From Bacteroidota bacterium (lineage in GTDB: Bacteria; Bacteroidota; Ignavibacteria; UBA10030; UBA8401), in contig JAGVPT010000151.1 in assembly GCA_020052095.1 (NCBI GenBank), positions 1 to 52,834 on the forward strand: a stretch of DNA of 52,834 bases. Reading direction: 5' to 3'. A model generated the notes under the pieces. The model was not told the DNA's origin. It ran no database searches and saw only the letters and a list, made by a program, of their open reading frames with translations. A program made the position numbers and the translations under genes. Within the stretch, counting starts at the first letter, position 1; the number at the start of each line of letters is the position of its first letter. Below, piece after piece: positions 36,207 through 39,490 of the stretch.

Positions 36207-37028
36207 CTATTGAAATGATCGTTGATGCCGGGCTTCATATAACACTACGGCGCTTGCGCTTCCGACGTTGATGGAATCAACTCCGTTCATCATGGGGATT
36301 GTCACCGCTTCGTCGCAGACCGCGAGAACGGCTTCGGAAATGCCGTTGCCCTCGCTCCCGAACACTACACAGCAGTCACCGGCAAGATCAACCATGCTGA
36401 CGTCCTTGCTTCCTTCCCGCGGATGCGCGGCGATCAACTTGGTGCTGTAGGAAGAGCGGAGAATCGACAATTCCTTTGCAATATCTCTCAATTGCACAAT
36501 CGGCAGAACAAATACATTTCCCATCGAATTCCTCACTGCGCGCCGGAGATACGGGTCGCACGAAGTCTCGCCAACGAGGATCGCCTGCACTCCGAAGGAG
36601 GCACAGTTGCGCACGATGACGCCGAGGTTTTCCGAGTTCATAATTCCGTCGACTGCGGCAAAAAGGAACGGATGGTGCGTTGTCGCGACGATTTTCGCTA
36701 TCGTGGTCCTCTCGGGAATTTCCGCTAACGCCATGATTCCTTTATGCAACGGATAACCGACGATCGTCTCCATCAAGTCCTTATCGGCAATGTAGACTTC
36801 GATAGTCTCGCGACGCGACTGAAGAAGGGATTCGTACACCGCAAACCACTCCTTTGTGAGGAGGATGGATCGGACGCGCAGCGTACTTTCGGCCAAACGA
36901 CGAACGACCTTTTCCCCTTCGGCAATAAAAATGCCCTGCTGTTGGTGATCGATGGGGCGTTTGAGCGTCCGATACGGTTCGAGATCCGCATGGTGAACGC
37001 TTGTAATGTGGTGTAAAAGGAGTGCCAT
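36207..37028 (-). CDS. SpoU/TrmH-family RNA 2'-O-methyltransferase
   Basis: A SPOUT-class enzyme that methylates ribose 2'-OH in rRNA or tRNA. The three family motifs are present: NSENLGVIVRNCASFGVQAIL, VFGSEGNGIS and IPMMNGVDSINVGSASAVVLYE. The N-terminal 90 residues form the L30e-like substrate domain (GIFIAEGEKVVRRLAE). The target base cannot be inferred. I use the ATG at 37028 (273 residues); an extension to a TTG at 37085 has its G-rich site too close to the codon. It is divergent from the next gene. Confidence 0.88.
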   Translation of the reverse strand: MALLLHHITSVHHADLEPYRTLKRPIDHQQQGIFIAEGEKVVRRLAESTLRVRSILLTKEWFAVYESLLQSRRETIEVYIADKDLMETIVGYPLHKGIMALAEIPERTTIAKIVATTHHPFLFAAVDGIMNSENLGVIVRNCASFGVQAILVGETSCDPYLRRAVRNSMGNVFVLPIVQLRDIAKELSILRSSYSTKLIAAHPREGSKDVSMVDLAGDCCVVFGSEGNGISEAVLAVCDEAVTIPMMNGVDSINVGSASAVVLYEARHQRSFQ

Positions 37029-37074
37029 AAGAATACGTGCGCTCTCTTTGGATCGTGCGATGCGGTGAAATTTC

Positions 37075-37103
37075 TTGTTTCTCAAACTCCCAACGACTAT
37101 ATT
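37075..37103 (+). promoter_or_regulatory. Possible promoter of the envelope-protein gene at 37147
   Basis: TTGTTT (37075-37080), 17 bases, TATATT (37098-37103), about 40 bases ahead of the start codon. The -35 is weak. Confidence 0.35.
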
Positions 37104-37146
37104 TTACGTGAAATTTTCATTCTTTCAAAATATTTTGTAGGAATTC

Positions 37147-37992
37147 GTGGAAAAAAAAATCCTCTGCATTCTGATCGCCCTCGTTTGTTCGACCACAGGA
37201 GCGTTCCCGGGCGACAAAGTTGAATTTTCGCTTCTGCCAATGCGTCATCTCATCCCGGTCTGGTCCGCGAACAGCACGGCCCATCGTATTTCGGCTTCAA
37301 AAATCATGGAGAACAACAACTACATCGGAAGCATGGGGGGCGTTTTTCCTCTGATTTCGGCTGCCCAGGAGGAAAAGGTCGTGCAGGTGAGCATCGCAAG
37401 CACTCTTTATACACAGCTTGAGAGGCCGCCAAAGCATTTGCAGGTGATCAATGTCGATTTTTTTGTCGATCTATTCGTCGATGTTAGTTTAAATGAAAAT
37501 CTCGTTCTCAGAAGCGGATTCGGCCATACAAGTCAACATCTCACGGATGACGCTATTGAGATTTTGGGGTACGGCCGCTCGATCAACTACCTTCGCGATT
37601 ACTGCCAGTTATTCGGGATGCTCAAAGCCGAAGCCATCAAAGGATTCGTCTATGGTGGGGCGTACTACAACTACAAATTTAAGACGCAGGCAGCCGGAAA
37701 ATATGATGTACCGGACGACGCGCCCAACCCGATGATCTATGAAATGGGGACTGAGATCACACCGCTTCAAGTGGGAGCATCATCGTTTGTGTATGCGGGA
37801 GTTGACATTAAGTTGAGAGGAGAAGCTAAATTCGGCGCATCTCAAAATTATCAAATTGGAATCAAGCATGTGAACGACCTCGGCCGGACAATTCGATTTG
37901 CATTCAACCATCATGCGGGATTGGAAGAGCGGGGACAATTCTTTGTGTTGCACAATACCTTTAATACCTTCTCGTTGTATTTTGACTTCTAA
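37147..37992 (+). CDS. Putative outer-membrane protein (DUF1207-like)
   Basis: A 281-residue exported protein with a signal peptide (ILCILIALVCSTTGAFPGD). Long stretches of alternating residues such as LVLRSGFGHTSQHLTDDAIE, FVYGGAYYNYKF and IRFAFNHHAG suggest a beta-barrel; the C-terminal residue is Phe (SLYFDF), as in outer-membrane barrels. The GHTSQHL region recalls the DUF1207 family, a comparison made from memory. The start is a GTG at 37147 after GGAATTC. Its function is unknown. It is followed 99 bases later by another envelope protein on the same strand. Confidence 0.65.
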   Translation: MEKKILCILIALVCSTTGAFPGDKVEFSLLPMRHLIPVWSANSTAHRISASKIMENNNYIGSMGGVFPLISAAQEEKVVQVSIASTLYTQLERPPKHLQVINVDFFVDLFVDVSLNENLVLRSGFGHTSQHLTDDAIEILGYGRSINYLRDYCQLFGMLKAEAIKGFVYGGAYYNYKFKTQAAGKYDVPDDAPNPMIYEMGTEITPLQVGASSFVYAGVDIKLRGEAKFGASQNYQIGIKHVNDLGRTIRFAFNHHAGLEERGQFFVLHNTFNTFSLYFDF

Positions 37993-39016: not shown

Positions 39017-39045
39017 TTGCCTTCCCCTGCAAAGTTTTGTATATT
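39017..39045 (+). promoter_or_regulatory. Predicted promoter upstream of the tRNA-Arg region
   Basis: TTGCCT (39017-39022), 17 bases, TATATT (39040-39045). The predicted start (about 39052) lies only eight bases before the first tRNA-like 5' fragment (39060) but about 200 bases before the intact tRNA. The original gene may have begun at 39060. Confidence 0.5.
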
Positions 39046-39059
39046 TCACGGCAAATTTC

Positions 39060-39258
39060 GCACCCATTGCTTAATCCTGCAGACAGGTCAGCGTGGTTGA
39101 GCAGAGTTTAATTTCGCCAATCACGAAGTGATGCCTTCGGCAAGTGCGGCGGGATTTCGCGCAGCATATGTGTTCGAAGACTAAGTATGCACCCATAGCT
39201 CAATCCCGCTAAAGAGCGGCGGGATTTCGCTTGACATATGTGCGACAAGTTTAAGTCT
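39060..39258 (+). repeat. Two partial 5' copies of tRNA-Arg with repeated flank
   Basis: GCACCCATTGCTTAAT (39060) and GCACCCATAGCTCAAT (39189) copy the first 16 bases of the intact tRNA at 39259. The stretch before the second copy (39147-39188) and before the intact gene (39217-39258) is also repeated: both have GCGGCGGGATTTCGC, then CATATGTG, then TAAGT. The second unit begins with a hairpin, AATCCCGC paired with GCGGGATT. Nothing after the first 16 tRNA bases is present in the partial copies, so they cannot form a tRNA. Confidence 0.8.
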
Positions 39259-39332
39259 GCACCCATAGCTCAATTGGATAGAGCATCAGACTTCGAATCT
39301 GAGGGTTGGGGGTTCGACTCCCTCTGGGTGCA
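39259..39332 (+). tRNA. tRNA-Arg (anticodon TCG)
   Basis: A complete cloverleaf: acceptor stem GCACCCA with TGGGTGC, discriminator A, D-arm AGCTCAATTGGATAGAGC, anticodon stem TCAGA with TCTGA around loop CTTCGAA, and T-arm GGGGGTTCGACTCCC. The anticodon TCG reads CGA. The 3' CCA is not encoded. It is preceded by two partial copies of its own 5' end. Confidence 0.95.
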
Positions 39333-39490
39333 CTAGATATGCAGAATAACAATTCTCACATAATTGTATTTGGATTTTTCTAAATTGCCAACTACCTATG
39401 TACTGCATGCTCAAGAGTTCAACGATGTCGCGTTGTTGACACGATGAGATAGAGAGGGCAGTTGGAACTATGCAATAGAAAACCGAGTAT

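Follow-up and report, generated by a model that had tools for sequence, protein, structure and literature searches.

The window, the whole stretch of 52,834 nucleotides analysed from an Ignavibacteria genome of the Bacteroidota (G000), carries an intact tRNA-Arg(TCG) gene that stands behind two upstream units. Both units are built in the same order: tRNA bases 1–16, a GC hairpin and a spacer. The features of the locus are the following.

39017–39045, + strand: promoter-like pair TTGCCT / TATATT ahead of the first unit (9/12 matches)
39060–39188, + strand: distal unit of 129 nt, with a tRNA-Arg 5' fragment (39060–39075), a degraded inverted-repeat region, GGCGGGATTTCGC and a spacer
39189–39258, + strand: proximal unit of 70 nt, with a tRNA-Arg 5' fragment (39189–39204), a hairpin and a spacer up to the tRNA
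39197–39231, + strand: hairpin with a tRNA-derived 5' strand, AGC..AATCCCGCT / GGCGGGATT..GCT (from the fold and a 25-unit consensus)
39259–39333, + strand: intact tRNA-Arg, anticodon TCG (ARAGORN, Rfam)

The two upstream copies of the first 16 tRNA bases given in a preliminary description are confirmed: GCACCCATTGCTTAAT (39060–39075) matches tRNA-Arg(TCG) bases 1–16 at 14/16 positions, and GCACCCATAGCTCAAT (39189–39204) at 16/16. The repetition noted ahead of both the second fragment and the full gene is equally real, with 81% identity over 63 nt between 39142–39204 and 39212–39274. The 129- and 70-nt units contain only 5'-end copies of tRNA-Arg, and no GIY-YIG or other endonuclease open reading frame (ORF) lies within them. 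A covariance model of such units matches the proximal unit (39189–39243) with an E-value of 9.4e-13, the sequence itself being part of the training set. Rfam returns the tRNA alone from the leader, a Plastid-ycf2 match on the minus strand falling under the cut-off. The ORFs flanking the locus are assigned by Pfam to SpoU methylase, DUF1207 and DUF2279; the SpoU-type RNA methylase and the DUF1207 protein are encoded upstream (window 36207–37992), and the methylase is conserved beside tRNA-Arg(TCG) in the congener G001.

The promoter proposed near 39017–39045 is present as a hexamer pair (39017/39040–39045) but is weak: it has 9/12 matches, a quality expected 1.7 times in shuffled sequence, and taken alone it stands at about chance level. 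The first fragment begins 14 nt after the −10 hexamer and not about 8 bases past the promoter, as was first stated. Within the window array, the promoter-like site precedes the first unit only. A TAnnTT(T/G) motif occurs 22–23 nt ahead of unit-free tRNAs and ahead of first units, with a frequency of 48% at the former, 43% at the latter and 11% in the last spacer, between hairpin and intact tRNA (Fisher 0.003). Since the motif is common before first units and rare before the intact tRNA, the first fragment most likely marks the place where the tRNA formerly started. The entire array would be part of the tRNA transcript, as its long leader. When the window leader is folded as a whole, base pairing is possible between the distal fragment and the 3' strand of the intact tRNA, and from this model it may be conjectured that a self-closing unit hairpin could protect tRNA folding.

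The hairpin is a shared property of the units, as 25 short units have the form AGC..AAUCCC/GGGAUU..GCU. Two pairs are compensated across these units, from A-U to G-C in 8 and from U-A to C-G in 3; the A-U to G-C change follows tRNA isotype, so the number of independent events is small. Acceptor strands pair in some units (L016, Val-CAC and Met), and a mini-tRNA with a conserved acceptor stem in every unit was considered and rejected, because own acceptor strands do not fold better overall across arrays (p 0.09, not significant). The pattern ATCCCGC..GCGGGATTTCGC has four genome-wide occurrences, three of them in tRNA units; this form of the hairpin, the only one that the count covers, is not generally dispersed, and a genome-wide repetitive hairpin unrelated to tRNAs is not favoured. 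Two further candidates were set aside, namely a T-loop remnant as the origin of the TTTCGC segment, given that longer units keep more tRNA after TTTCGC (L180, L181 and L183), and group I intron-like splicing, given that the full tRNA is intact downstream.

Partial 5' duplicates at other tRNA genes, which the preliminary description proposed to search for, are frequent. Among tRNAs without another tRNA just upstream, a copy of the own 5' end (at least 13/16 within 400 nt upstream) is present at 9 of 30 in the window genome and at 8 of 36 in G001. The 5' ends of other tRNAs are found in the same DNA at rates of 1.6% and 0.7%, respectively (Fisher 9e-9 and 3e-9), and in shuffles at no more than 0.17%; a chance origin of the 5'-end copies is excluded. 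The arrays comprise one to five units and stand at different tRNAs in different species. The largest, at Val-TAC in G001, has five units with a period of 59, of which units 4 and 5 are identical; further arrays stand at Gly-TCC (three units), Asn (three), His (two) and Met (two). Copies of tRNA 3' ends are also present, mostly downstream, at Ala-CGC, Arg-ACG, Pro, Ser-CGA and Val. A pattern of D arm plus hairpin yields 17 sites in the family, while the reversed control pattern yields none.

The window array belongs to a far more widespread pattern. When 84,980 species were scanned, 13 stretches came up, in Ignavibacteriales and other Bacteroidota, in Desulfobacterales/Deltaproteobacteria and in Omnitrophota, and similar leaders are known also from Desulfobacterota and Omnitrophota. 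In ten of the 13 stretches, the unit adjoins an intact tRNA with the matching end (L182, the G007 locus, among them); the other three have a tRNA start after the unit that is broken off at or near the contig end. The covariance model, built from 25 units, finds matches in 18 of 60 relatives; almost every strong one is immediately followed by a tRNA with the same 5' end. In the Omnitrophota MAG JAUYEC01, three tRNA-Arg loci on different contigs (L179, L185 and L189) carry a near-identical unit of hairpin and spacer, a sequence similarity that suggests either that the unit passed from one tRNA gene to another or that the loci are recent paralogous duplicates.

Comparison with relatives reveals that the arrangement is not fixed. 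The orthologous G001 locus has the same flanking genes and promoter region with one unit where G000 has two: the 129-nt distal unit is absent from G001 with exact limits, the gap running from one tRNA base 1 to the next, and the proximal unit has a homologous unit there. Thr-CGT provides an empty/filled pair, in which the G001 tRNA lies directly behind the promoter region and the G000 tRNA is separated from it by one unit. Among arrays of at least two units, the distal fragment matches the tRNA worse in seven, better in none and equally well in seven, as expected if the intact gene and its adjacent unit are the newest parts.

The likely source of the units is a group of small GIY-YIG proteins (class-B) that match Pfam PF01541. 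Downstream of Pro-GGG, Pro-CGG and Ser-CGA in the window genome, such a protein is encoded between the tRNA and its displaced 3' end. Class-B relatives occur across the phylum in 82 of 148 genomes, often in tandem, with nine matches in the window genome. A same-strand tRNA lies within ~750 nt at 27 of the best 30 class-B loci in Bacteroidota, a proportion partly conditioned on the query having come from a tRNA-adjacent locus, versus none of 14 for the other small GIY-YIG group of the same genomes; this contrast describes one subfamily and not all GIY-YIG genes. The typical site of a tRNA-adjacent class-B ORF is between an intact tRNA and a displaced, hairpin-broken tRNA piece. Eight loci display the order 5' tRNA fragment, hairpin, GIY-YIG ORF, intact tRNA, with the isotypes Arg-TCG (L198), Arg-TCT (L211), Ala (L204), Pro and Ser, and other loci display the order intact tRNA, ORF, hairpin-broken 3' piece. 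The hairpins are located in the D loop (L198, L211 and L204), the anticodon loop or arm (L203, L207, L170 and L162) or the T loop (L212 and L149).

Individual class-B loci extend the range of forms. At L016 (G040:C16, 106–603), a full-length pseudo-copy of tRNA-Arg(ACG) with GC hairpins in the D, anticodon and T loops stands directly before a GIY-YIG ORF, which is followed by the intact tRNA-Arg(ACG). A tandem of about eight GIY-YIG matches set ~365 nt apart, all of them interrupted by one or two in-frame TAG stops (G110:C34:6988–9787), looks like a repeatedly stacked element. The GIY-YIG reading frames of L152, L165 and L170 extend into the adjacent tRNA or fragment, so that the protein tails are translated tRNA. 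At L147 (G007:C20, 1377–1800), an SRP RNA gene is followed by a class-B GIY-YIG ORF and then by a copy of the SRP RNA with two inserted segments; the element is therefore not limited to tRNA genes.

Units with and without an ORF also meet at the same tRNA. The tRNA-Arg(TCG) of G050 has a GIY-YIG ORF, an ORF-less unit and the intact tRNA in one array. In G031 the two forms flank this tRNA: an ORF-less unit stands on its upstream side, and on its downstream side there is a GIY-YIG ORF together with a 3' piece broken by a hairpin. A GIY-YIG ORF lies within 1 kb of 5 of 25 loci with ORF-less 5' units versus 6 of 92 loci (p=0.055). This co-occurrence is suggestive only, and that the short units descend from ORF-bearing ones is thus our best inference.

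Taken together, two insertions of a small unit that targets tRNA genes have probably displaced the window tRNA-Arg and rebuilt it each time, the short units being ORF-less descendants of a homing-endonuclease-like element. In every unit an earlier 5' part of the tRNA remains, which a GC hairpin closes; then come a spacer and a fresh 5' part, so that the intact tRNA stands downstream, and the promoter-like site keeps its place ahead of the oldest fragment. Relatives have units of this build that contain a small GIY-YIG ORF. A GIY-YIG enzyme, acting in cis or in trans, would cut the intact tRNA gene, and repair from an element-bearing copy would insert the unit, either by homing or by nuclease-driven tandem amplification. 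The hairpin may block the old cut site or silence the broken copy, and the short window units would be non-autonomous. Any effect on RNase P processing, which the preliminary description envisaged, would be a supposition of the same kind. Its first proposal, that successive insertions each restored the 5' end of the tRNA, has good support from the variable number of units between species, the Thr-CGT pair, the decay of distal fragments and the ORF-bearing relatives. Against the nuclease-based reading stands that the window locus has no GIY-YIG ORF of its own.

Its other proposal, tandem duplication of a flank, is not our main reading, and may still expand arrays once a unit exists. As a complete explanation, slippage or unequal recombination would have multiplied leader and tRNA, with decay of all but one copy and no dedicated element. 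This is unlikely, although it accounts for the regular periods and for the resemblance of units inside one array, such as the identical units 4 and 5 of Val-TAC and the 81% repeat shared by the 129- and 70-nt units, and ordinary unequal recombination can also grow tandem repeats. Against it speaks that one type of hairpin recurs in the same place (after TAGCTCAR) across tRNAs and across phyla, that broken copies keep an exact 5' or 3' end with GC hairpins inserted in the D, anticodon or T loops, and that GIY-YIG ORFs lie between two tRNA pieces. A fixed regulatory or processing leader, such as a device for RNase P action or attenuation in which a mimic of the tRNA 5' end is required, is improbable. 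The two compensated pairs of the hairpin, a window leader that folds better than shuffles (z −2.9) and the predicted co-transcription of the units with the tRNA would suit such a device, but the presence and number of units vary at the same tRNA between close relatives, most tRNAs have no units, distal units decay, and acceptor-strand closure across arrays is not significant.

Integrase islands at tRNA genes carry an integrase and a duplicated att site, usually the tRNA 3' end. A remnant of such an island, with the tRNA as attachment site, is very improbable at the window, where the pieces are 5' ends alone, 50–130 nt apart, and where the tRNA stands too close to its flanking genes, which the G001 locus shares, for an island to fit in; the displaced tRNA pieces beside a restored tRNA do correspond to the hallmark of such islands (Islander, PMC4383910). 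Chance or mis-assembly is hardly credible, as the chance rate is ~1% or lower and, fragmented as the window draft is (281 contigs), the same architecture recurs in the 20-contig assembly of the congener and in independent assemblies that span three phyla.

Beyond the window, there is about an even chance that these loci represent a class of bacterial mobile element, not described before, that resides in tRNA genes and, in at least one case, in an SRP RNA gene. In such a class, a small GIY-YIG endonuclease would split an essential RNA gene, the element would rebuild the displaced end, GC hairpins in tRNA loops would disable the displaced piece, and ORF-less units would spread and stack as tandem leaders. 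A search of the open-access PMC literature found no account of ORF-less arrays and of ends broken by hairpins at bacterial tRNA genes. The loci show that tRNA genes present in a single copy, which are usually taken to be invariant, are broken and rebuilt time and again in Bacteroidota, and probably in further phyla as well. They provide a natural series from the unit-free tRNA through the ORF-bearing element to the ORF-less tandem array, with which it becomes testable whether free-standing GIY-YIG genes are mobile within cellular chromosomes. They also explain odd tRNA-like tails on small GIY-YIG proteins, and the long leaders with broken tRNA copies are a warning for tRNA annotation and promoter studies.

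Several known systems share some of these properties. As in the integrative islands at tRNA genes (Islander, PMC4383910), the target tRNA is split and restored and a displaced fragment marks the event; unlike those islands, the units lack an integrase, measure ~50–400 bp, involve 5' as well as 3' pieces and form tandem arrays. In mitochondrial DNA, short hairpin-forming or double-hairpin elements invade repeatedly and differ between close relatives (PMC2800124), as the units do, whereas the hairpins of the tRNA units lie inside displaced tRNA copies and prefer tRNA loops. The phage GIY-YIG homing endonuclease SegB likewise adjoins tRNA genes and drives tandem amplification of a tRNA segment; it differs in residing in phage genomes, in amplifying intact tRNA and, as far as the available part of the source goes, in having no hairpin-broken tRNA fragments (PMC13096335). 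Gene-end replacement is known from the mORFs of fungal mitochondria (Allomyces atp6; Glomus atp6, atp9, cox2 and nad3), in which the native end is displaced behind an endonuclease ORF, that of Glomus atp9 being a GIY-YIG enzyme (PMC3630166). Its signs are seen at the window, where displaced ends stand beside an intact tRNA, the boundaries are exact and presence/absence polymorphism is found. The ORF-bearing tRNA loci resemble mORFs in that the endonuclease ORF lies between the rebuilt gene and the displaced native end and the inserted end restores the gene (PMC3630166); unlike mORFs, the units target bacterial tRNA genes, rebuild either the 5' or the 3' end, place a GC hairpin on the displaced piece and occur in ORF-less tandem forms.
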